From positions 62,001 through 126,000 of the forward strand of contig JAEUJQ010000092.1 of assembly GCA_016793095.1 (NCBI GenBank): DNA of 64,000 nucleotides. Reading direction: 5' to 3'. The notes under the pieces are model-generated. The model was not told the DNA's origin. It worked only from the letters and a program-made list of their open reading frames with translations, and did no database searches. A program made the translations under genes and the position numbers. Shown piece after piece: positions 49,693-63,158 of this stretch. Within the stretch, counting starts at the first letter, position 1; the number at the start of each line of letters is the position of its first letter. Source of the stretch: Myxococcaceae bacterium (GTDB taxonomy: Bacteria; Myxococcota; Myxococcia; Myxococcales; Myxococcaceae).

Positions 49693-51015
49693 TCAGCGGC
49701 GAAGCCGGTCCAGCGCCCTGGCCACGACAGGCGCCTTGGCGTTGAGCTCATCGCGGAGCCTCTTCCTGATGAACTTGCCCGTAGACCTGGGCAACTGCGC
49801 GAGCTCGGCCTCGAGCGCGGTGATGCGCAGGTTCTTCTTCCGCACCGTCTCCTCAAGAGCAAACAGCGTCCGCTCGCGCGACTCGAAGGCGGCCACCACT
49901 TCGGTCCACACGGGGGAGTCAGGCCCGGCGTTGCGCGCCTGGTCGAGCAGGGGCGCGACAAGCTCTTTCTTGTTGAGGGCGGAATGCGTCGCTTCCAGCC
50001 ACTGGCGCCCGTAGCGCAGGTCGGGCTCGAGATGGCAGCCCTCACCCCACTCGTTCCAGGCATTGATGAAGACGAACTGCCGCTCCTCGGGCAGCAGGAG
50101 CCGCGTCTGGTGCACGACCTGGTGCAGCCAGAATTGGTAGTCGAATTGGGTCGAGTTGATGAAGATGTGAGGGTTGTCCTGCCGCCGCGCCGTGTTGTCC
50201 CACGACGGCATCACGCCCCGGTACCGCTCGTAGTCGACGCGGGGCTTCGCGAGCGCCTGGGCCATCACCTTCAGGTAGTCCACGACGGCGCCGCGGAACT
50301 TCGGGTTGGTGAAAGCAGGAATCGGGTCGGGTTTGTTCTCGGGGCCGATCAGCTGATGCGGCGGGAACTCGACCGCCGCATCGAAGCCCCACGGGCGCGG
50401 GTCGTTGATCCCGTAGAACTGGACCGCGCAGAGGTGGAGCCCCGGGAAGCCAGCATCGGTCGCCAGCTTCCGCCACCGCGCTGCGGTTGCCTTCATGTCG
50501 GGGAAGAGGTCGACACGGTAGACGAGCAGCATCGGCTTGCCGCCCACCTTGATGTAGCGGCTGTCAGCGAACAGCGGCAGCAGGCTCTTGAGGAAGGCCG
50601 CGTCGTCTTCGGGCGAGTGCTTCTGCCCGAGCAGCACGTCCTTCTCCTTGCCGTCCCACGTTCTCGTCCAGTTCTCGTTGGCCCAACAGACGCAGTAGTT
50701 GAAGTCGATGTCCTTCGTCGCCGCGTACTGGTTCAGCGGTCGCTCGAGGATCCGCCGGCCCCCGAACCAGTAGTAGTAGAAGCAGAACCCGTAGAGCCCA
50801 TACTCCTTCGCCAGCACAGCCTGCTTGCGCATGACGTCCACGTTCCGCAGGTCGTAGTAGCCGAGCTCGCCCGGCACGTGGGGCTGGTAGTGCCCCTCGA
50901 AGTTCGGCTTGCCCTTCACCACGTTGGTCCACTCGGTGAAGCCCTTGCCCCACCACTCGTCGTTCTCGGGCACCGGGTGGTACTGCGGCAGGTAGAAGGC
51001 TATCGACTTGACCAT
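49693..51015 (-). CDS. WbsX-like (GH99-like domain) polysaccharide biosynthesis protein
   Basis: 440 residues. Opening VKSIAFYLPQYHPVPENDEW, WWGKGFTEWTNV, and later WANENWTRTWDG, WDNTARR, FINAWNEWGEGCHLEPD are the classic WbsX/GH99-like pattern found in O-antigen and capsule loci. The C-terminus adds a helical region with ERTLFALEETVRKKNLRITA coiled coil. Start ATG 51015 is four bases after AGGAGG and overlaps the stop of the upstream glycosyltransferase (TGATG); GTG 51018 is an alternative. Exact activity unknown; endo-glycosidase or transferase suggested by the fold. Confidence 0.9.
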   Translation of the reverse strand: MVKSIAFYLPQYHPVPENDEWWGKGFTEWTNVVKGKPNFEGHYQPHVPGELGYYDLRNVDVMRKQAVLAKEYGLYGFCFYYYWFGGRRILERPLNQYAATKDIDFNYCVCWANENWTRTWDGKEKDVLLGQKHSPEDDAAFLKSLLPLFADSRYIKVGGKPMLLVYRVDLFPDMKATAARWRKLATDAGFPGLHLCAVQFYGINDPRPWGFDAAVEFPPHQLIGPENKPDPIPAFTNPKFRGAVVDYLKVMAQALAKPRVDYERYRGVMPSWDNTARRQDNPHIFINSTQFDYQFWLHQVVHQTRLLLPEERQFVFINAWNEWGEGCHLEPDLRYGRQWLEATHSALNKKELVAPLLDQARNAGPDSPVWTEVVAAFESRERTLFALEETVRKKNLRITALEAELAQLPRSTGKFIRKRLRDELNAKAPVVARALDRLRR

Positions 51016-53417
51016 CACGCCTCCTCGTCTTCGTCGAAGACCCGGGGCATGCCGTTGGAGTGCCGCAACGAGAGGTTCGGGTTGAAGAACGGGTCGGTCT
51101 GACCGGTCCGCACCTTCAGCCGCTGCACCTGCTCTTCGGGGCGCGGGGCCTTCGAGAAGTGCAGCACGCGCGCGTGGGGCGTGTAGAGCACACGCAAGCC
51201 GTGGGAACGAACACGAGCACAGAGATCGAAGACGGCCGCAGAGTTGTCGATCTCAGTCGAGAAGCCGCCCACCTTCTCGAGCACCCGGCGAGACACCGCG
51301 AAACACGCCGGCGAGACCGCGAGGTAGTTGCGCGTCCAGTCGGGGCTGCCCATGGTCGTCCATTCGCCCGCATCGGCCATGTTCTCGAAGGGACGCACCA
51401 CGTCGCCACGAGCGCCAACCACCCAGCCCGCGTCCTGGATCGTGGAGTTCGGGTTCACGAGCTTCGGGCCAACCACGCCGATGCCCGGCCTCAACGCCTG
51501 GCCGACCAGCTCGCCGAGCCAGCCGATGTCGATGACGGCCGTGTCTTCGTGCATGAACACGTAGACGTCGGCCTCGTTCCCACGCCACGCAGCCTCGTAC
51601 ATCGCCCCGATGTTCACGGGCCCGTTCCACTGAAGGTGGCGTGCGTTCGCCGTCGGGAACTTCGAGACGATGCACAGCTCGTGATCCTCCCAGGCGGTGT
51701 TCTCGAGGCCTTCCTTGAGGTGCGCGACCTTCGAGCTTCCGGCGACGACCACCATCGCGTGCGCGCGCTGCACCTCGTAGGAGATCTTGTAGTGCGTAGG
51801 GAAAGGCGACTGGATCGTGCCGCGCTCACCGCACCGCTCGAGGTGATCCGCGAGTGCACGGATGCCCGCCATCGCCGCCTTGGGCTTGTTCGCGACGTTC
51901 GAGGCGGTGGAGTCGGGGGTCGCGCGCCAGTGGTACAGCACCTCAGGGATGTGGCCCACCGACTTCGAAACCTCGCTCATGCGCAGCGCGAGATCGTAGT
52001 CCTGCGAGCCATCGAACCCTGTGCGCACCCGGCCGACTTCCTCGACGAGCGAACGCTTCGCGACGAGGAAGTGACAGATGTAGTTGCAGGCGCGCAGGAG
52101 GTCGGGCGACCAGTCGGGCTTGAAGAAGGGCACGACCCGCCGCTCTGCGCTGTCGAGGCGATCTTCGTCGGTGTAGAGGAAGTCGGTCTCAGGGTGCTTC
52201 GCGAGGTACAGGACCACCTCGGCGAGCGCGTGCTCGGACAGGGTGTCGTCGTGGTCGAGGAACGCGACGTACTCGCCGGTTGCCATCGCCAGCGCCTCGT
52301 TGGTCGCCACGGCGATCCCGCCGTTCCGGGGCATCAGCCGCACGCGGATTCGCGGGTCAAGTTCGGCGAGCGACTCGACGAAGTACTGGGTCTCGGCGTC
52401 GGGGCTCCCGTCGTCGACGAGGCACAGCTCCCAGCGCTCGTAGGACTGCGCAAGGACGGAGTCGACGCACTTCCTCAGCACCGTGCGATCGGCGCGGAAG
52501 GTCGGCGTGATGACGCTGATCATGGGGCGCCACTCGAGGTCCGCGACCTGCTGGGCGGCCTGCCGGGCGCGGCGCGCTTCGCGGCTGAGGATCGTCGCTG
52601 GGTACCAGGCGCGACCGTCGTCCGGCTGCAGCGGCAGACCGAAGAGCGAGGTGAAGGTCCTGGTCACCGACTCGTTGAAGACCTGTTGCTTGCGCAGCAG
52701 CTCGACCCACATCGGGAAGGTGACTCTCGACAACCCTTTCATCTCTTCGGGCAGCGGGAAGCGCGACAGGCGCATCATCTCGCCGAGCGCAAAGTGCACG
52801 TCCGGACCAGGGCTGCCAACGCTCTCCTCGAGCAGCGTGAAGAGCAGCTCCATCGCGTGGGCGTTCCACTCACGCTGCTGCCTGAGTGCCGGGCCCATGA
52901 AGTGGGCGAGCACCGACGAGACCCCCCTGGGCTTGACCGCCTTGATGCGGTTCTGCAGCGCGCTGAGCGTGGACCGAACGTGGGTGGACAGGCCGACGCC
53001 GCTCGGAAACCGACCGTCGATGCTCCACACGACGAAGTCGAGGAGGTTCTGGTTGAAGTCTCTCTGAGGCTCGAGCAGCCGCGAGTGGGCTGGGCGCAGC
53101 CCCTCGGCCACCACCCGCTTGGTCGACGTCACCAGCGTGCCGACCGCCGCGCGATGCGAAGGCTTCACCTCGAGTCGCAGCAGGTCCCAGCTCGCGATCG
53201 CTGGCCAGATCGCCTCGTGCGGCGGCACGCGCGGCGCCATCACCCGCCGCTCGATCTCCTTGTTGATGAAGGCCAACAACCGCCGGCCGGCCGACAGCTC
53301 CTCGGTGCTCGCCAAACCCCGTGCGGTGAGCGTCTCGATGACGCGGCTGTGCACCTCAGCGAGGTGTCTGAGCTCACCGAGCCCGACACTCGGAGCGCGC
53401 GAGTCTTCAATTCCCAT
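51015..53417 (-). CDS. Large glycosyltransferase: helical module, canonical GT2, degenerate second GT2
   Basis: 800 residues. An N-terminal helical region of about 295 residues includes LEPQRDFNQNLLDFVVW, LRQQREWNAHAMELL and WVELLRKQQVFNESVTRTF. The first GT2 domain (about 297-530) is complete: ISVITPTFRADRTVLRKCVD, CLVDDGSPDAET, FLDHDDTLSEHAL, YTDEDRL. The second (about 560-780) keeps the fold (VGPKLVNPNSTIQDAGWVVG, LRVLYTPHARVLHF) but its donor-site segment reads YVFMHEDTAVID instead of L-N-N-D-I. Starts 11 nt inside the end of the small GT2 gene. Role: surface polysaccharide chain synthesis. Confidence 0.9.
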   Translation of the reverse strand: MGIEDSRAPSVGLGELRHLAEVHSRVIETLTARGLASTEELSAGRRLLAFINKEIERRVMAPRVPPHEAIWPAIASWDLLRLEVKPSHRAAVGTLVTSTKRVVAEGLRPAHSRLLEPQRDFNQNLLDFVVWSIDGRFPSGVGLSTHVRSTLSALQNRIKAVKPRGVSSVLAHFMGPALRQQREWNAHAMELLFTLLEESVGSPGPDVHFALGEMMRLSRFPLPEEMKGLSRVTFPMWVELLRKQQVFNESVTRTFTSLFGLPLQPDDGRAWYPATILSREARRARQAAQQVADLEWRPMISVITPTFRADRTVLRKCVDSVLAQSYERWELCLVDDGSPDAETQYFVESLAELDPRIRVRLMPRNGGIAVATNEALAMATGEYVAFLDHDDTLSEHALAEVVLYLAKHPETDFLYTDEDRLDSAERRVVPFFKPDWSPDLLRACNYICHFLVAKRSLVEEVGRVRTGFDGSQDYDLALRMSEVSKSVGHIPEVLYHWRATPDSTASNVANKPKAAMAGIRALADHLERCGERGTIQSPFPTHYKISYEVQRAHAMVVVAGSSKVAHLKEGLENTAWEDHELCIVSKFPTANARHLQWNGPVNIGAMYEAAWRGNEADVYVFMHEDTAVIDIGWLGELVGQALRPGIGVVGPKLVNPNSTIQDAGWVVGARGDVVRPFENMADAGEWTTMGSPDWTRNYLAVSPACFAVSRRVLEKVGGFSTEIDNSAAVFDLCARVRSHGLRVLYTPHARVLHFSKAPRPEEQVQRLKVRTGQTDPFFNPNLSLRHSNGMPRVFDEDEEA

Positions 53418-54327
53418 GGCGATCTCCGCTGAGGCTGCCGCCGATCATGGCGCCTTCGGGACGGTAGAAGGGCTCATCAACACCCTCCCACCCTGCGAGA
53501 TACGGCTGGTACGAATGCTCCTTCACGAAGACCTCATAGAAGACCGGCCAATGGTACGGCGATGGGGCGAGACGGTTGACGGGCCGACGGCGGGTGGCGG
53601 CCTTGAGGTACCGGCGCATCAGCTCGGGGCACTCCCTGGCAGCGACCTCACCCATCAGGGCGGTGAACGAGTTGGTCCCGTGCAACCGGTAGGCATACAG
53701 CCGGTCAGGCACGTAGACCGGCTCGGTCACCAGAAGAGACCGCAGGATGAAGTCCCAGTCGTGGACGAGCCGGTACGGGCGGAAGAGGCCGATCTCGTCG
53801 AGCAGGGCGCGCTTGAAGAAGAAGTTCCCGGTCGAGATGGCGACGTTGGACAGCACGAGCGCCCACCCGACGGTAGGGAACTGCTCGATGGCCGCTTGCT
53901 TGGCCGCGAGCTCGGCGGCGTAGTCGGACACGGCGCTGACGTCGACGCCGTGCTCATCCACGTACCAGACCCCGCTGAATCCGAAGCGGCCGCCAGCATC
54001 GCTCACCGCAGCCGCCATTCTCTCGAGGCGCTCGACGTGGAAGAGGTCGTCGGAGTTGCAGAGCGCGACCCACTCACCACGCGCGCGGCGCAGGCCCTGA
54101 TTGAGGGCTTCATGCGCGCCCTGGTTCGGCTGGCGGATGCGCACCACCTCGTGCTTCGCCGTGAACCGGAAGTCCTGAATGCGGGTCCACGTCTCGTCGG
54201 TCGAGCCGTCGTCGATGACGATCACCTCGAGCGGTCCCATCGTCTGAGAGTCGATGCTGCGCAGGCACGCCTCGACGTAGGCCTCATGGCGGTAGCAGGG
54301 CACGATGACTGAGACAGCGGGGCGCAC
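53407..54327 (-). CDS. GT2-family glycosyltransferase
   Basis: 306 residues from GTG 54325-54327, where the GT-A fold starts (AVSVIVPCYRHEAYVEACL). IDDGSTDETW (nucleotide site), LCNSDDLFHVERLER (metal-binding Asp pair), and VHDWDFILRSLL (catalytic base region) are typical of cytoplasmic GT2 enzymes that add one sugar to a lipid-linked glycan. The frame extends 34 codons upstream without conserved sequence. Acceptor and sugar unknown. Located between the frameshifted membrane gene and the large GT. Confidence 0.9.
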   Translation of the reverse strand: MRPAVSVIVPCYRHEAYVEACLRSIDSQTMGPLEVIVIDDGSTDETWTRIQDFRFTAKHEVVRIRQPNQGAHEALNQGLRRARGEWVALCNSDDLFHVERLERMAAAVSDAGGRFGFSGVWYVDEHGVDVSAVSDYAAELAAKQAAIEQFPTVGWALVLSNVAISTGNFFFKRALLDEIGLFRPYRLVHDWDFILRSLLVTEPVYVPDRLYAYRLHGTNSFTALMGEVAARECPELMRRYLKAATRRRPVNRLAPSPYHWPVFYEVFVKEHSYQPYLAGWEGVDEPFYRPEGAMIGGSLSGDRHGN

Positions 54328-54337
54328 CGCCGGCCCC

Positions 54338-55595
54338 TTATTCTTCCCCGCCTGGTGACGCAACGCCCTCGGCTCGATCGGGCAGAGGCATGAACCAGCC
54401 CTCGGGCCAGATCTCGACGCGCGAAGCACCGCTCGAGCGCGCCTTCGAGAGCGCGGCGGGCCACGGCGGGCCGGGGATCGTCACGAAGAGCCCCGTGCCA
54501 GCCTGCAGGGCGCAGATCCACGCGAGCGACACCGAGAGCAACCGCTCGGCCCAGCGGGGACCGTGCGTCATGGCGACCGCTGTCAACACGAGCGTCGCGG
54601 GAACAGCGAAGTACCGGGCTCCTCCCAGCACAGACTCGAAGTCAGCAGCGGCCCCGTGCGGCGCAGCGACCGCGACGACTGCGACCACGAGGCCAGAGTA
54701 GAGGGTCAGCTGCGCTGGCCGCGAGCGGGCCGTGACCACTCGGAGCACTGCGAGCCCCAGCAGGACCAAGGAAACCAGCTGCAGAGCGACGCCGTTGAGC
54801 TGATCCGCCGCGGTGGACGACAAGGGCACCGCCACGAGGTGAAACCCGAGGACGCGCAGCCCCTCGACCACCTCTCCAGTGGCCGTTCTGCCTGGGCCCG
54901 TCATCACGAGCAGACCGAGTTGGCCAGCGGAGGCCAGAGCCAGGAGCGCAAACCGGCGCAGGTGTTCGGGCTCACGGGAGTGCCAGGCGACCAGCGCGAA
55001 CGCCGGCAGGAGAAGAGTGGCGGGGACTCCGCTGAGCCCGCACACGAAGGCGAGAGCCGCGGGCCACCACGAGACCCGAGCTGGGAGCAGCAAGACGAAC
55101 CGTGAAGTAGACCGCGTAGAAGTGTAGGTTGGCGGCGTTGGCGAGCGGCTCGGCAACCTGAGGCAGAGCGGAGCTGAGGGTGAGGAAGACAACGAGCGCG
55201 CGAACCTCGAGCACTCCCGACCGCCACAGCGTCGCTGCGGCGACGGGCACCAGCATCGCGACGAGCAGTGGGAGCCAGGTGAGCACTCGCGCCGCTGCTT
55301 CGAGCTCGACGAACGACGCCAACCAAGCCACGAGGTTCGTCCAGCCCTCGAGGTGACCGTGGTACACGAACCACAGGGTTTGATTCTCGATCATGGCGGG
55401 CAGGAAGACCGTCCCGTCCTCAGCCCAGATGCGACCGGAGCCGAGGAAGAACCGGCACCGGTAGGCCAGCGCACAGCTCGACAGCAGCGCCGCGAGCGAG
55501 ACCAGGGCGGTAGCACGGGGCCGCTGGTTCTGGTAGGGCGCGGGAATCATGAGCCAGCGAGCGAGACTTTTCCTCTTCTTACTCACGGGCGACAT
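54338..55595 (-). pseudogene. Frameshifted multi-pass membrane protein of the polysaccharide locus
   Basis: Two overlapping minus-strand frames are halves of one gene. The first begins MSPVSKKRKSLARWLMIPAP, has IWAEDGTVFLPAM and YHGHLEGWTNLVAWLASF (an extracytoplasmic acidic loop as in GT-C transferases), and runs to NLHFYAVYFTV. The second continues naturally with FVLLLPARVSWWPAALAFVC and more membrane helices to a soluble end at 54338. Switching frames near 55095-55112 (one extra or two missing bases) would give about 415 residues with about ten helices. Either a real inactivating mutation or a sequence error. No homopolymer run explains it. Confidence 0.8.
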
Positions 55596-55667
55596 CGCTG
55601 GCGCGGACCTCGAGTGGCGTGGCGGTGCTTCGCCCTGTCAACGCAGGCCGTAATAGCAGGCACGATC

Positions 55668-58600
55668 ATGTCACGACATTCCGTAGGGGCTGAGCACGCG
55701 AGCCTCGTCTCCTTCGACATCGCACCCTCTCCACGGATGGCGACCGAGCAGCTGCTCCTCGCCCTGTCGGACTGGCAGCAGGAGTGCGAACGCTCGGGTG
55801 ACCGCAGCGACGCTGCGGTGCTGAGGCAGTCGCTGGTCGCCAACCTCCTGACGCAAGGTGGCGCGCTTCAGGGGCTCTCAGGCGCCCTCGAGCTGGCGGA
55901 ACGTTATGCGGACGTCGTCGCTCCGCCGTCGGAGGCGCGGGGCCCGGGCGCGGCGCTCAGGGAGCTGTTCTTTCCCCTCGAGGTGGAGTTCCTCCGGCCA
56001 CAAGCCGAGTTCAACCGCGCCTTCGTCGAGGTCGCGCGCCGCGTGCTCTCCAGTCCCTCGGCCACCATCCGATCGTGGACGAGGGCGCGCCTCAAGCCAC
56101 TCGCCGACCCGCACGGCTTCCGCGTCAAGAGCCACCGGAACAACGTCGTCGGTCGGCTGGTCGAGCTCTTGAAGAAGAGCTCGCTCGTCGCGCTGGAGCC
56201 TTTCGCGAAGGGCTTCCTCGATCGTCAGGCTGAGTGGAACGACTGGGCGATGGCGCTGCTCGAGCGGTTCGGGGTGGGCGGCGTCGAGCCCATCGAGCTC
56301 CAGGCGATCCTCGATCGCATGGCCGAAGGGCCTCACCCCTCCGACCAGCCGCCGGCCAGCGTCACCGAGAACGTGCTCGCCTTCTGGAAGGAACTCGAGC
56401 GCAAGCAGCTGCTCTTCAACCGGCAGGTGGTGACGCTGTTCCGCGGGAAGGTAGGGCTGCCCTCGAGCCAGGTCCGCTACGACGACTGGATCCGCACCAT
56501 CGAGAAGCAGCGCCTCGCCGAGCCTGCGCCGGCAGTGGCGCTCACCGTTGGCGCCCTCATCGACGGGCGCGGCGCGAGCGCAGCGGCGTTGCGACAGACG
56601 GTCGAGTCGCTCGAGAAGCAGGTGGTTCCCCCGACGGAGATCATCGTGGTGGAGAACGGCGAGGCGAGGCTCCCCGCGGCAGAGCTCGTGCTCCTGCTCC
56701 GCGCTGGTGACGTCGTGGCCTCCGACGCGACCCGGTGCTTCGCGCGCGCGGCGATCGAAAACCCCGAGGCTTCCTGGTTCTACGCAGACGAAGACCGCGA
56801 CGTGTCGCACAAACGAGTCGAGCCGTTGCTCAAGGCCCGCTTCAACCCCGCGCTGCTCTTCTCCTGCGATCTCTTCGCCCGCAGCTGTGCCGCTCGTCGC
56901 ACCCTGCTCGAGCGCCTGCCTCTTCCATCACCCGAGGTGCCCTTCCGCTACGACCTGGCGCTCCGCGCACACGAGGCCCACGCGTCGTTCGCGCATGTCC
57001 CCTCTGTGCTCGTCACTTCGCCTGGCCCCTCCCGCCCCGGGGACCTGGTGCCGGAGCACGGCGAGCGCTCGCTGGCCCGGTTCTTCGAGCGTCAGGGGGT
57101 CGCGGTCGAGATCGACCGGCGGCACACCGCGTTCCAGGTGCGCTTCGTGCCACCCCGCCGACCGCTCGTCTCGATCATCGTCCCCTTCAAGGACAAGCCA
57201 GAGCTGCTCCGGCAGTTGCTCAAGAGCCTCTCCGCCACCTCCTACGAGAACTACGAGCTTCTGCTCGTCTCGAACCAGAGCTCTGAGCCCGAGACCGAGG
57301 CGCTCCTCAGCTCGATCACCGACCGCAGGGTTCGCGTCTCGAAGTGGGATCACCCCTTCAGTTACACGGCCATCAACAACGACGCAGCCCGGCAGGCGAA
57401 GGGAGAGCTGCTGCTCTTCCTCAACAACGACATCGAGATCAGCGAGACGCGGTGGCTCACCGATCTCGTCGGGCGCGCCCTGCAACCTGGCACTGGCGTG
57501 GTCGGCGCCCGCCTGTTGTTCCCGGATCGAACGCTGCAACACGTCGGGGTCGTCGTCGGCATGTCGGGCTACGCAGATCACGTGATGTCGGGTCAGCCCG
57601 ACGACGGAGGGCTGACGGTCGCGGGGTCCTCGGACTGGTCTCGCGAGTGGTCGGCGGTCACCAGCGCGTGCATGCTGATCAGCCGGGAAGACTACGACGC
57701 AGTCGGCGGCTTCGACGAGCGCTTCAAGCTCTGCGGTGGGGACGTCGATCTGTGCCTGCGCGTGCGGGCGCGCGGCAAGCGAATCGTCTACGCCGCCGAG
57801 GTCACCCTGATTCACCACGAGTCGGCGACGCGTGGCCGCTCGGTCATTCCCCAGAGCGACTTCGTGGAGTCTCTTCGCGCCTATCGTGGAGTGCTCGGCG
57901 CTGATCCCTTCTACCCGTCAGCCTTGAGCCTCGCGACCACCACGCCGCAGCTGCGGACGCCCGACGAGCCGACGGCCATCGAGCTGTCAGTACGGGCGCT
58001 GGGGTTCGTCGCGGGTGACAGAGCGAGCCCGTTGTCCTCGGCGCGGGTCGCGTCGATCAACAGTGTGCGGCGGTTCATCAACGAGCTGGACGACGCGCCT
58101 CCGGTCAGTCGCTCCACGTTGTCACGACCTCCCAGGGACATCACGTGGCTCATCCCAGGCTTCGCGCACCCGTTCGGGGGCATTCACACCATCTTCCGCT
58201 TCGCTCACCTGTGGAAGAAGCACTTCGACGTCACCAACCGCTTCGTGGTCTACGATCAACCCAACGTGTCGGCGCGCGAGATCGAGGCGCGTGCAGCCAT
58301 GTTGTGGCCCGAGTTGCCTGGCTCGTTCGAGGTGCTCGGGTCGCTGTCCGCCGTCGGCTCGCTCCCCCAGACCGACCTCGCCATCGCGACGCTCTGGTCC
58401 AGCGCCTTTCTGGTCGCTCGGCACCCGCGAGCCGGGGCGCGGGCCTATTTCGTTCAGGACGACGAGCCGGCGTTCCACGCTGCCGGCAGCCTGAGCGCGC
58501 TCGCCGACCGCACCTATGAACTCGGCCTCTACGGCATCTTCAACAGCCGCGGGCTTCACGACACGCTGACGACCAGGCACTCGATCCGGGGCACCTTCTT

Positions 58601-59195
58601 CGAGCCGTCAGTCGATCACGACCTGTTCCACGCCAACGGCCGGGTGAGCCAACACGACCCGCTGCGAGTGTTCTTCTATGCTCGTCCCTCCGTCGATCGG
58701 AACGCCTTCGAGCTCGGCCTCGAGTCGCTGCGCGAGTTCAAGGCGCGCCTCGACGGCCCGGTCGAGATCGTCTGCGCCGGAGAGTTCTTTGACCCTGCGC
58801 TCTTCGGGGCCTCGGGGCTGATCGAGAACCTGGGGGTACTCCCCTACGCCGAGACGGCGGCCCTCTACCGCTCGAGCCACCTCGGGCTGTGCTTCATGAT
58901 GACGAAGCACCCGTCCTACCTGCCGCTCGAGCTGATGGCGTGCGGGGCGACCGTGGTGACCAACGTGAACCCGGCGAATGACTGGCTCTTCGAAGACGGT
59001 GCGAACTGTCTGCTGAGCCGCCCGACGCGGGCCGGGGTGGTCGAGTCCCTGCTGCGCGCCGCGAGGGACCCCGAGCTGCGCCAACGCATCGGCAGCGGCG
59101 CGGCGGAGCGGCTGCGGCGTACCACGTGGGAGCGGCAGGCCACGCGAACCTTCGACCACCTGACCCGGGCGCTGACGGCCTCGAACCCGACGTGA
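55668..59195 (+). CDS. Giant glycosyltransferase: helical module, degenerate GT2, GT2, WsaF-like C-domain
   Basis: 1175 residues from ATG 55668. N-terminal helical module (about 90-280) has FLRPQAEFNRAFVEVARRVL, LDRQAEWNDWAMALLERF, FWKELERKQLLFNRQVV. A shortened GT2-like domain (about 288-480) lacks D-D-G-S and D-x-D but keeps WFYADEDRDVSHKRVEPLLK. A canonical GT2 (about 497-745) follows: VSIIVPFKDKPELLRQLL, SYTAINNDAARQAKGELLLF, LNNDIEI. The last 350 residues (ITWLIPGFAHPFGGIHTIF, YFVQDDEP, FMMTKHPSYLPLELMACG) resemble WsaF-type GT4-fold rhamnosyltransferases. Rhamnose use fits rmlBD downstream. Confidence 0.88.
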   Translation: MSRHSVGAEHASLVSFDIAPSPRMATEQLLLALSDWQQECERSGDRSDAAVLRQSLVANLLTQGGALQGLSGALELAERYADVVAPPSEARGPGAALRELFFPLEVEFLRPQAEFNRAFVEVARRVLSSPSATIRSWTRARLKPLADPHGFRVKSHRNNVVGRLVELLKKSSLVALEPFAKGFLDRQAEWNDWAMALLERFGVGGVEPIELQAILDRMAEGPHPSDQPPASVTENVLAFWKELERKQLLFNRQVVTLFRGKVGLPSSQVRYDDWIRTIEKQRLAEPAPAVALTVGALIDGRGASAAALRQTVESLEKQVVPPTEIIVVENGEARLPAAELVLLLRAGDVVASDATRCFARAAIENPEASWFYADEDRDVSHKRVEPLLKARFNPALLFSCDLFARSCAARRTLLERLPLPSPEVPFRYDLALRAHEAHASFAHVPSVLVTSPGPSRPGDLVPEHGERSLARFFERQGVAVEIDRRHTAFQVRFVPPRRPLVSIIVPFKDKPELLRQLLKSLSATSYENYELLLVSNQSSEPETEALLSSITDRRVRVSKWDHPFSYTAINNDAARQAKGELLLFLNNDIEISETRWLTDLVGRALQPGTGVVGARLLFPDRTLQHVGVVVGMSGYADHVMSGQPDDGGLTVAGSSDWSREWSAVTSACMLISREDYDAVGGFDERFKLCGGDVDLCLRVRARGKRIVYAAEVTLIHHESATRGRSVIPQSDFVESLRAYRGVLGADPFYPSALSLATTTPQLRTPDEPTAIELSVRALGFVAGDRASPLSSARVASINSVRRFINELDDAPPVSRSTLSRPPRDITWLIPGFAHPFGGIHTIFRFAHLWKKHFDVTNRFVVYDQPNVSAREIEARAAMLWPELPGSFEVLGSLSAVGSLPQTDLAIATLWSSAFLVARHPRAGARAYFVQDDEPAFHAAGSLSALADRTYELGLYGIFNSRGLHDTLTTRHSIRGTFFEPSVDHDLFHANGRVSQHDPLRVFFYARPSVDRNAFELGLESLREFKARLDGPVEIVCAGEFFDPALFGASGLIENLGVLPYAETAALYRSSHLGLCFMMTKHPSYLPLELMACGATVVTNVNPANDWLFEDGANCLLSRPTRAGVVESLLRAARDPELRQRIGSGAAERLRRTTWERQATRTFDHLTRALTASNPT

Positions 59196-61168
59196 ACACG
59201 CCTGTCCGCGAGGCCCTCGAGCGTTTCGGGCGCCAAGGCACGGTCGACCCCGAGCTGCGCGCGCTGGTCGCCGACGCTCTCGCGCGGGCGCCGCGGCTCT
59301 ACCAGGCCCGCGCGTCTGCTGACGTGCTGTCCGTCGGACTCGAGCGTCGACCCGCCGCAGAGCAGCCGCTCTGGGGCGAAGCCCTGCGGAATCAAGTCGA
59401 GTTCAACCACGCGCTCGTCGATCTCGTCGAGGCGTGGCCCTGGCTCACACTCGAAAACCGCCGCGTCGTGCTCGGCGGGCTCGACCGGCAGGCCCGTCAC
59501 GAGTGGAACCCTCCCCGGAAGCCAGGGGCCCGTGGCTTCGCGGTTTCGTCGCTCAAGGTGCTCGCCGGGCCGGTGGTCGGCGTGTTGCTCCGCGCCACCT
59601 TCGAGGAGCTCACGCGCGCCAACGCCGAGGTCCTCCGGTCGCTCCGGGACGACTACCCGGGCGGACCGGCGATCGAGGGGGCGGGGCGTGCGCTCCGCGT
59701 ACGAGGAGGAGCGAGCGGTCCATTCTGCCAGGCGCAGGCGAGCTTCCTCGTCGCGCTCGCGCGCAGCCTCGAGCTGACCCTGCGGGCAGGCCAGGCGCCG
59801 CCAGCCGACGCTCCGACAGGCGCCGTCTCGCTGCGGCCAGCGGTGAGCGGCACGGGCCCGATCGTCATCCGCCTCGGCGCCGCTGAGGGCTTCACGAAGG
59901 AGGGCGCCCGTCACCTCATCGATGCCTTCTCCACCCCGTCGGTGATGGCCGCGTTCGGCGACGCCTGGCTCGACGGGCGTCGGGTCTTCCGACCGTCGTA
60001 CGGCAGGGAGTCGCTGTGGCAGACCAACGTGATCGGCGAGACGTTCGCGGTGCGGGCATCGCTCGTCGAGGCGCGAAAGCTGACCGCCGCGTCGGAGCCG
60101 CTCGAGTGGCTGCTCGCCGAGGGCCTCGACGAACGAACGGTCGCCCGAATCCCCGAGGTGGTGACCGTCGGCAAGCGGGTCGCAGAGACGGCGGCTGCGG
60201 GCGCCATCGTGCAGCAAGCCATCTCGCCGACCGTCCACGCAACGGTGACGCAGAATGACGGCAGTCGGACCGTTCGTCTGCGTTCGACCAGGCGGCCGCT
60301 GGTGTCGGTCATCGTGCCGTTCCGCGATGCGCCCGAGCTGCTCGAGGGCCTCTGGCGTTCGCTCGATCAGCACCGCGCAGGCGCTGAGTTCGAGCTCGTG
60401 CTCGCGTCGAATCAGTCGCGGGAAGGTCGCACGTTCCGGCTCCTCGACTCCTTGAGCGGGAACCGCAACGTTCGCTGGTTCGAATGGAACCAACCTTTCA
60501 ACTACTCGGCCATCAACAACGCCGCGGTGCACCGCGCCCAGGGCGACCTGCTGTTGTTCCTCAATAACGACATCGAGGTTCGCCATGACGACTGGCTCGC
60601 GGATCTGGTCGGCTACGCAGAGCTCGCCGAGGTGGGGGCCGTCGGCGCACGGCTGCTGTACCAGGACGGGTCGCTGCAACACGCTGGAGTCGCGCTGGGC
60701 TTTCGCGGGCTGGCGGGCCATTTCTTCGCGAGGTGGAGGCCGGAGTTCGGCTCGACGCCGTTCGGCTGGCCAGGGACACGTAACTGGACGGCGGTGACGG
60801 GCGCCTGCCTGCTGATGCGGCGCGAGGTGTTCCACGACGTCGGCGGCTTCGACGAGCGCATGGTGGTGTCTGGGAGCGACATCGAGCTGTGCTGTCGCGT
60901 GCGAGCGCGTGGCCTGAGGGTCGTCTGCGTCGGGCACGTCGAGCTGACCCACTTCGAGTCCCAGAGCCGAGGGAGGACCCCTCCATCGCTTGATGACCTG
61001 CGGCGCGAGCTGCTCGCCTTCCTGCCGATGATCGAAGCGGGGGACCCCTACGCTCACCCAGGCCTGTGCCGGCACGGCCTGACCGGCTACGGCGCGCTCG
61101 AGCCAGAAGACGGCTTGTCGTTCGCGCTCAGATCGATTGCCGGGCGCCTGGTCGCCGCGTCGCGGTGA
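59192..61168 (+). CDS. Glycosyltransferase with degenerate first and canonical second GT2 domain
   Basis: 658 residues from GTG 59192, overlapping the previous stop by 4 nt. Helical N-terminus with LRNQVEFNHALVDLVEAW. Residues about 225-350 look like an eroded GT2 (IVIRLGAAEGF, GDAWLDGRRVFRPSYGRES, GETFAVRASLVEARKL) aligned by eye with the eroded domain of the preceding protein. The C-terminal GT2 (about 367-640) is canonical: VSVIVPFRDAPELLEGLWRS, FNYSAINNAAVHRAQGDLLL, FLNNDIEVRHDDWLADLVG, FDERMVVSGSDIELCCRVRA. Polysaccharide assembly role inferred. Confidence 0.88.
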   Translation: MNTPVREALERFGRQGTVDPELRALVADALARAPRLYQARASADVLSVGLERRPAAEQPLWGEALRNQVEFNHALVDLVEAWPWLTLENRRVVLGGLDRQARHEWNPPRKPGARGFAVSSLKVLAGPVVGVLLRATFEELTRANAEVLRSLRDDYPGGPAIEGAGRALRVRGGASGPFCQAQASFLVALARSLELTLRAGQAPPADAPTGAVSLRPAVSGTGPIVIRLGAAEGFTKEGARHLIDAFSTPSVMAAFGDAWLDGRRVFRPSYGRESLWQTNVIGETFAVRASLVEARKLTAASEPLEWLLAEGLDERTVARIPEVVTVGKRVAETAAAGAIVQQAISPTVHATVTQNDGSRTVRLRSTRRPLVSVIVPFRDAPELLEGLWRSLDQHRAGAEFELVLASNQSREGRTFRLLDSLSGNRNVRWFEWNQPFNYSAINNAAVHRAQGDLLLFLNNDIEVRHDDWLADLVGYAELAEVGAVGARLLYQDGSLQHAGVALGFRGLAGHFFARWRPEFGSTPFGWPGTRNWTAVTGACLLMRREVFHDVGGFDERMVVSGSDIELCCRVRARGLRVVCVGHVELTHFESQSRGRTPPSLDDLRRELLAFLPMIEAGDPYAHPGLCRHGLTGYGALEPEDGLSFALRSIAGRLVAASR

Positions 61169-62135: not shown

Positions 62136-63158
62136 ATGAACGTCCTCGTCACCGGTGGTTGTGGCTTCATCGGCTCCAACCTCGTCCATTGGCTGCGGAA
62201 GAACCGGCCCGCGTGGACCGTCGTCAACCTCGACAAGCTCACCTACGCCGGCAACCTCGAGAACCTCGCCGCGCTCGAGGGCGACCCGAAGCACGTCTTC
62301 GTCCAGGGCGACATCTGCAACCGTGAGCTCATCGATCACGTCATTCGCACGCACCGCATCGACGCGATCATGCACCTGGCGGCCGAGAGCCACGTCGACC
62401 GCTCGATCCTCGGGCCCGAGGCCTTCATCAAGACGAACATCCTGGGCACCCAGGTGCTCCTCGAGGCCGCGCGCCACGCGAAGCTCTCCCGCTTCCTCAT
62501 GGTGTCCACCGACGAGGTGTACGGCTCGCTCGGCCCCACCGGCTTCTTCACCGAGACGACGCCGCTCGCCGCCTCGAGCCCCTACTCCGCCTCCAAAGCC
62601 TCGGCCGATCTCATCACCCTCGCCTACGAGCACACGTTCGGCCTCGACGTCGTCGTCACCCGCTGCTCGAACAACTACGGCCCGTTCCAGTTCCCCGAGA
62701 AGCTGATCCCCCTCATGGTGATCAACGCGCTCCATGACAAGCCGCTGCCGGTGTACGGCGACGGGCTCAACGTGCGCGACTGGCTGCACGTGGACGATCA
62801 CTGCTCGGCCCTCGTGACGGTGCTCGAGAAGGGCAAGAAGGGCGGCGTCTACAACATCGGCGGCAACTCGGAGCGCACCAACATCGTCATCGTGAAGACG
62901 ATCCTCCAGGCGGTGGGCAAGCCGGAGTCGCTCATCAAGTACGTGCAGGACCGCCCCGGCCACGACCGGCGCTACGCCATCGACGCCACGAAGATCCGCA
63001 CCGAGCTGGGCTGGGAGCCGAGCCGCGTCTTCGAGAAGGCGCTCGCCGAGACGGTGAAGTGGTACCTCGATCACCGGCCCTGGTGGGAGCACATCACCTC
63101 GGGCGCGTACCGACAGTACTTCGACACCCAGTACAAGGCCCGCCTCGAGAAGCACTGA
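62136..63158 (+). CDS. rfbB: dTDP-glucose 4,6-dehydratase
   Basis: 340 residues, standard RmlB length. Converts dTDP-glucose to dTDP-4-keto-6-deoxyglucose, second step to dTDP-L-rhamnose. NAD motif VTGGCGFIGSNLVHWL, substrate segment HLAAESHVDRSI, catalytic STDEVYGSLG (Thr-Asp-Glu) and SPYSASKASADLI (Tyr-x-x-x-Lys), CSNNYGPFQFPEKLIPLM, and YGDGLNVRDWLHVDDHC are intact. Followed after 1 nt by rfbD. An AT-rich TACATAAG and TTGACC lie upstream but with wrong spacing for a clear promoter. Confidence 0.97.
   Translation: MNVLVTGGCGFIGSNLVHWLRKNRPAWTVVNLDKLTYAGNLENLAALEGDPKHVFVQGDICNRELIDHVIRTHRIDAIMHLAAESHVDRSILGPEAFIKTNILGTQVLLEAARHAKLSRFLMVSTDEVYGSLGPTGFFTETTPLAASSPYSASKASADLITLAYEHTFGLDVVVTRCSNNYGPFQFPEKLIPLMVINALHDKPLPVYGDGLNVRDWLHVDDHCSALVTVLEKGKKGGVYNIGGNSERTNIVIVKTILQAVGKPESLIKYVQDRPGHDRRYAIDATKIRTELGWEPSRVFEKALAETVKWYLDHRPWWEHITSGAYRQYFDTQYKARLEKH

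Follow-up and report, generated by a model that had tools for sequence, protein, structure and literature searches.

Three large tandem glycosyltransferases, P0001 (1175 amino acids, aa), P0002 (658 aa), and P0003 (800 aa), are encoded in the 64,000-nucleotide stretch of Myxococcaceae DNA analyzed here (the window; contig C49, positions 62001-126000, of source genome G000, 8.8 Mb in 93 contigs). Each protein carries two GT2-type units, D1 and D2, one with an intact active site and one with its donor and catalytic residues eroded. We consider it probable that the three are one-site derivatives of polymerases like RfbC from the Myxococcus rfbABC O-antigen locus (Guo et al. 1996, as cited in PMC7484181), each acting as its own enzyme, with the dead GT2 unit kept as a pseudo-glycosyltransferase. 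That one of two tandem GT2 modules has been inactivated repeatedly is a wider and better-supported finding than the pairing of complementary proteins suggested in a preliminary description of this DNA.

Domain organization and site losses

The three open reading frames and their domains are as follows.

51015..53417, minus strand: P0003, 800 aa; helical domain, live GT2, and eroded GT2, without GT4
52542..53381, minus strand: P0003 N-terminal all-helical domain, residues 13-292, three Q-x-x-[FW]-N repeats
51783..52535, minus strand: P0003 D1, residues 295-545, intact GT2 (D335-D336, D388-H-D390, base D473)
51153..51761, minus strand: P0003 D2, residues 553-755, eroded GT2, donor loop shortened
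55668..59195, plus strand: P0001, 1175 aa; helical domain, dead GT2, live GT2, and WsaF-type GT4
55731..56519, plus strand: P0001 N-terminal helical domain, residues 22-284, three Q-x-x-[FW]-N repeats
56547..57152, plus strand: P0001 D1, residues 294-495, dead GT2 (YADED 372-376, K389, and R410 retained)
57162..57911, plus strand: P0001 D2, residues 499-748, intact GT2 (N536, NND with D588, base D692, H716)
58056..59162, plus strand: P0001 WsaF-type GT4 module with the HPSYLPLE rhamnose signature (WsaF match and signature of PMC2943079)
59192..61168, plus strand: P0002, 658 aa; GTG start, GTGA overlap with the P0001 stop
59855..60226, plus strand: P0002 D1 remnant, about residues 222-345, donor half mostly lost
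60296..61012, plus strand: P0002 D2, residues 369-607, intact GT2 (N407, D460, D563, H587)

Site-by-site alignment with homologues bore out the preliminary description of three frames with two GT2-type units each, one eroded, and all the motifs it quoted were found. When the metal and UDP-site residues of each unit were checked, one set was complete and the other eroded in every protein. The first unit of P0003, described as canonical, is intact at D335-D336 (VDDGSPD), D388-H-D390 (DHDD), and the base D473 (GSQDYDL). The second units of P0001 and P0002 are likewise canonical, at N536/D588/D692/H716 and N407/D460/D563/H587.

The losses differ in depth. P0001 D1 has VE plus a deletion in place of DDGS, RAGD in place of DHDD, and R427 in place of the base, so that E329, R345, G347, and R427 occupy the donor, DxD, and base positions; the segment linking the DDGS strand to the DxD strand is missing, and YADED is retained. 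P0001 D1 is clearly a pseudo-glycosyltransferase domain, with donor and catalytic residues gone and the fold kept. The first unit of P0002 also lacks the DDGS and DxD sites, as had been noted: it has no DHD, P303 replaces the base, and the donor half is largely deleted. It is still recognizable as GT2, but as a remnant rather than a full unit.

P0003 D2 was correctly described as having MHEDT in place of NNDIE. Here HED replaces NND, K586 the Asn equivalent to DDGS, and V729 the catalytic base Asp, and the donor loop is shortened. P0003 D2 is probably a pseudo-glycosyltransferase domain with its fold kept. This was nevertheless the weakest part of the earlier claim: D625, the third Asp of the DxD-like site, and His753 are retained, and the case that the unit is dead is weaker than for D1 of P0001 and P0002.

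P0001 has a third, apparently intact module that the preliminary description had missed. Residues 798-1103 match WsaF (2x0d) at E values of 2e-20 to 1e-19 and carry HPSYLPLE; HPSYxPLE has been put forward as a motif that may mark rhamnose use (PMC2943079). This GT4 module is found in P0001 only; P0002 and P0003 lack it.

RfbC-type proteins (L063-L118) have, ahead of their GT2 units, an all-helical N-terminal domain that carries as many as three Q-x-x-[FW]-N repeats. It is shortened in P0002, where one repeat is left, and it had no Pfam match in P0001, P0002, or P0003. All 65 open reading frames with at least two Q-x-x-[FW]-N motifs were tandem-GT2 proteins. Four open reading frames of 400-422 aa near RfbC-type genes end C-terminally in a similar helical domain, and the three that were scanned had no Pfam match:

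L066:12718-13920, minus strand
L115:2539-3774, plus strand
L110:3102-4367, plus strand
L107:16398-17666, minus strand

Recurrence of one-sided decay and selection on the eroded units

Each protein was searched against 117 genomes of the order, and about 70 loci were read, which gave 84 tandem-GT2 proteins. The commonest relative is RfbC-like, about 1290 aa, with a helical domain, two GT2 units, and often a GT4 module. In the main count (n = 79), with D1 scored by a two-site rule and D2 by a three-of-four rule, D1 was dead in 41 proteins and D2 in 15, both were intact in 23, and both were dead in none; these counts depend on the motif rule, a strict three-site rule and a simpler one differing by a few proteins. 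P0001, P0002, and P0003 each lack a second intact GT2 site, as do 56 of the 79 relatives, and two intact sites therefore do not define the wider RfbC-type family.

On the tree, the loss of D1 took 9 changes by parsimony, or 11 without regain, where the largest D1-dead group of this Dollo analysis (18 rows) covers two genera and may conceal more than one loss; the loss of D2 took 3 by either count. A stricter motif rule gave 8 D1 and 5 D2 changes, and a tree from the D2 columns alone gave 10 D1 state changes. Within the genus g7, D1 forms a graded series in which DHDD passes through DADA and DCGD to GAED.

P0003 belongs to a supported clade of 12 proteins, all shorter than 1000 aa with D1 intact and D2 eroded. 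P0003 and P0001 belong to separate old lineages, neither sisters nor recently split. On a recent tandem duplication as the origin of P0001 and P0002, the trees disagree: one makes the two proteins sisters (support 90, long branches), and the tree built from D2 alone does not.

Sequencing errors or frameshifts are an unlikely source of the erosion: no stop interrupts the frames, and the losses are shared by relatives. Outside the order, a contig scan found eroded D2 units in one bin each of Verrucomicrobia and WOR-3 and in deltaproteobacterial bins. The scan used D1 patterns and so could detect only relatives with an intact D1, which came from many phyla; a few of these had D2 eroded.

In four g7 proteins (L087, L089, L091, and L094), GAED and QG replace DHDD and QD in an RfbC-type D1, and at the one locus checked (L087) the gene adjoins Wzm/Wzt genes. 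Judging from these motifs, only D2 and GT4 are probably in use in some Myxococcus-type O-antigen polymerases. We also observed that record BNCN01000007.1 (L142) encodes an RfbC protein of Myxococcus type under the title Comamonas sp. KCTC 72670; the title is probably wrong.

Selection was measured by pairwise NG86 comparison of close relatives in eight groups. In the D1-dead groups, the ratio of nonsynonymous divergence (dN) in D1 to that in D2 was 7.8 (g7) and 2.1 (g5), and it was 7.0 for the partly decayed g7 proteins. In three D2-dead groups, the ratio was 0.42, 0.29, and 0.32, and in the larger intact group it was 1.55. The raised dN was thus confined to the motif-poor unit in seven of the eight groups; the exception, an intact g3 group with a ratio of 0.25, consists of one pair so nearly identical that its changes are too few to count for much. 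Synonymous divergence (dS) was alike in both units, and the motif-less unit was usually two to eight times faster in dN than its neighbor. Since one-sided loss recurs in about 80 homologues and dN rises in the motif-poor unit, the loss goes beyond chance. Omega (dN/dS) of the dead unit was mostly 0.2-0.5. Constraint on the dead units is relaxed, yet purifying selection on them is real.

For columns with conservation of 90% or more in live D1 units, we then scored retention in 12 deeply diverged dead D1 units. The donor and catalytic columns (DDxS, N411, DHD, QD, and W543) were kept at 0-0.25, and the core columns Y461, D463, D465, K479, P480, Q370, and G427 at 0.83-1.0. D463, D465, and K479 were retained at 92-100% even in old dead units. 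Column conservation was also compared across 24 lineages; DDGS, NGGIA, DHD, and QD were lost together, and YxDED and FKP persisted. For dead D1 units, this is the pattern that a pseudo-enzyme retained for its architecture would leave in the sequence.

AlphaFold2 modeled P0003 (48-row alignment, pLDDT 86.5) and residues 1-790 of P0001 (37 rows, pLDDT 84.1) each as two GT-A units preceded by a helical N-terminal domain. The GT-A core was modeled in live and dead units alike, although the alignments include live relatives, so that homology partly imposes the fold on the dead units. In the model of P0001 D1, the strand and helix between the DDGS and DxD positions are missing. The retained core residues sit in the remaining strands and helices. 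The closest solved structures to the tandem are the tandem GT-A polymerases K4CP and PmHS2: P0003 D1 aligned with 2z86 at Z 28.1 and 2.1 Å over 241 residues, with about 22% identity for the domain. P0001 D2 aligned with ppGalNAc-T10 at Z 22.9.

Proposed role of the dead units

We propose that the RfbC-type ancestor had a helical domain, two GT2 units of GT-A fold, and often a WsaF-type GT4, each module making one linkage of a repeating unit that would probably be rhamnose-rich. Since an RfbC-type protein combines in one chain the transferase modules that WsaE and WsaF supply together for a trisaccharide repeat, it is natural to assign one linkage to each module. One GT2 unit would then, in many lineages, have lost its donor and catalytic residues and been retained as a pseudo-glycosyltransferase that positions the adjacent live module and might also position the acceptor glycan. 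The transfer sites in use would be D1 of P0003, D2 and GT4 of P0001, and D2 of P0002. Together with an ordinary GT2 protein and a WbsX-type protein encoded nearby, the three could bring the number of distinct transferase sites that serve one polysaccharide to five or six. The suggestion in the preliminary description that the dead unit serves as a scaffold or acceptor clamp is reasonable, given the GT-A core in the models, the residual selection, and the fixed noncatalytic residues.

Three points weigh against this proposal. We infer the scaffold role from residual constraint alone. Second, weak or altered activity of P0003 D2 may persist, given D625 and H753. Third, by branch length alone, the lack of proteins dead in both units falls short of significance (about 0.09), and dead proteins may simply vanish; we rejected "never dead in both units," which is also open to ascertainment bias, as a strong constraint.

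It is also conceivable, if rather less likely, that the dead units decayed without any function. A linkage would have been dropped or taken over while surface polysaccharides diversified, and the dead unit would persist by its fusion to a needed one. The graded series within one genus, the rise in dN of up to about eightfold, and the extensive deletion in P0002 D1 would all fit such decay. However, omega would then be expected near 1 rather than mostly at 0.2-0.5, and neither the retention of D463, D465, and K479 in old dead units nor the confidently modeled GT-A core fits with it.

The preliminary description had proposed that pairs of proteins act together, each giving one active site. On the co-occurrence counts and the state of adjacent genes, we rejected this as a general rule. 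Among the 64 genomes with such proteins, only 2 (the source genome and G102) hold both D1-dead and D2-dead proteins; 35 hold D1-dead proteins only, and 10 hold D2-dead proteins without any D1-dead protein. In G028, G099, G102, and G104, neighboring tandem-GT2 genes share one state, an intact D1 with an eroded D2, and in the sole translationally coupled pair in the window, P0001/P0002, D1 is dead in both. In several Corallococcus-like and g7 genomes (L106, L111, L081, L080, L145, L147, and L149), the adjacent pairs with intact D1 and eroded D2 encode proteins of about 780 aa each (one frame is 950 aa) and derive from two different old clades.

A partnership specific to the source genome is possible, because P0003 D1, P0001 D2, and P0001 GT4 amount to exactly one copy of each ancestral RfbC-type module. 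P0003 and P0001, perhaps with P0002, might form a hetero-oligomeric polymerase with one live GT2 site in each partner, in which the reciprocally dead units dock and hold the acceptor, much like EXT1-EXT2, which polymerizes heparan sulfate; we regard such a complex as doubtful. G102 holds the same combination of D1-dead and D2-dead proteins, and EXT2 has a pseudo-GlcA-T domain within an obligate heterodimer (PMC9675754). Against it, P0003 and P0001 are not sister lineages, their genes lie in divergent operons, and the adjacent pairs elsewhere are dead in the same domain. Single-domain GT2 proteins are also possible partners.

Activity of the "dead" units through unusual, metal-independent, or different-donor chemistry is improbable: P0003 D2 retains HED and H753, and a second clade (L106, L111, and L081) has its donor loop deleted yet keeps D-A-D and the base, but P0001 D1 has lost its donor-site acids, DxD-like site, base, and intervening segment, and dN is raised in exactly these units.

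Locus and comparison with known systems

The genes lie in a surface-polysaccharide cluster that spans from about 49.7 kb to the window end and further. P0004, P0003, and the WbsX-type protein are encoded on the minus strand, and P0001, P0002, the methyltransferase, and the RmlB-, RmlD-, and RmlA-like proteins on the plus strand.

49693..51018, minus strand: WbsX-type protein (PF14307), downstream of P0003
53407..54429, minus strand: P0004, ordinary, intact single-domain GT2 protein, 340 aa, overlapping P0003
61225..62082, plus strand: methyltransferase-domain protein
62136..63158, plus strand: RmlB-like dTDP-glucose 4,6-dehydratase
63160 onward, after the RmlB-like gene: RmlD, then RmlA-like nucleotidyltransferase

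The RmlB-, RmlD-, and RmlA-like genes would be a local source of dTDP-rhamnose, which is only suggestive of rhamnose transfer. No Wzt_C transporter was matched in the source genome, so that linked Wzm/Wzt genes are not part of this locus, and the nearest ABC2_membrane gene is 25 kb off and of a different type. Export is therefore unlike that at the Myxococcus O-antigen locus, which has Wzm/Wzt. At 54338-55595 on the minus strand, two overlapping membrane-protein frames (207 and 284 aa) resemble one hydrophobic protein with a frame change and look like a pseudogene or an assembly error.

RfbC is among the closest known systems. P0001 shares the module order of the RfbC-like relatives of about 1290 aa (helical QxxFN domain, GT2, GT2, and WsaF-type GT4), and its residues 330-1163 align with many full-length relatives at 46-50% identity. 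In contrast to RfbC, each of the window proteins has one dead GT2 unit, and P0002 and P0003 have no GT4; some Myxococcus-type members also carry a dead D1. If both GT2 units of an RfbC-type protein were annotated as active, the repeat predicted for its polysaccharide would be wrong, at Myxococcus-type O-antigen loci too.

In Geobacillus stearothermophilus, WsaE, with two GT domains, and WsaF build a trisaccharide rhamnan repeat (PMC3898925, PMC2943079). The likeness lies in two GT domains and a WsaF-type GT4, rml genes close by, and HPSYxPLE (PMC3898925, PMC2943079); WsaE is likened by module content only. However, the trifunctional WsaE has a methyltransferase domain and two active GT domains, and WsaF, a beta-1,2-rhamnosyltransferase, is a separate protein, whereas in the window the modules are spread over P0003 (D1), P0001 (D2 and GT4), and P0002 (a second D2). 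The Escherichia coli K4 chondroitin polymerase K4CP (2z86/2z87) and Pasteurella heparosan synthase 2 (PmHS2; 8vh7/8vh8) are also tandem GT-A enzymes, but both of their sites are active, compared with one eroded site in each window protein, and the sugars are presumably different.

We found no earlier report of half-dead tandem GT2 proteins in bacteria in the open-license literature, which does not prove that none exists. To our knowledge, pseudo-glycosyltransferase domains are known mainly from animal enzymes. The family described here is bacterial. One of two sister sites has been lost in it on about ten or more separate occasions, the decay is graded within one genus, and intact relatives are at hand for comparison; it offers a natural experiment that could separate the GT2 residues required for chemistry from those required for architecture. 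EXT1-EXT2 and EXTL3 are likewise bi-domain glycosyltransferases in which one inactive pseudo-domain has long been retained (PMC9675754, PMC9178029). They are animal enzymes that combine GT47 with GT64 rather than GT2 with GT2, the arrangement is not homologous, and the EXT1-EXT2 heterodimer is demonstrated. If P0003 and P0001 did form a hetero-oligomeric polymerase, this bacterial complex would parallel EXT1-EXT2 and would consist of proteins whose single-site decay has recurred many times across myxobacteria.

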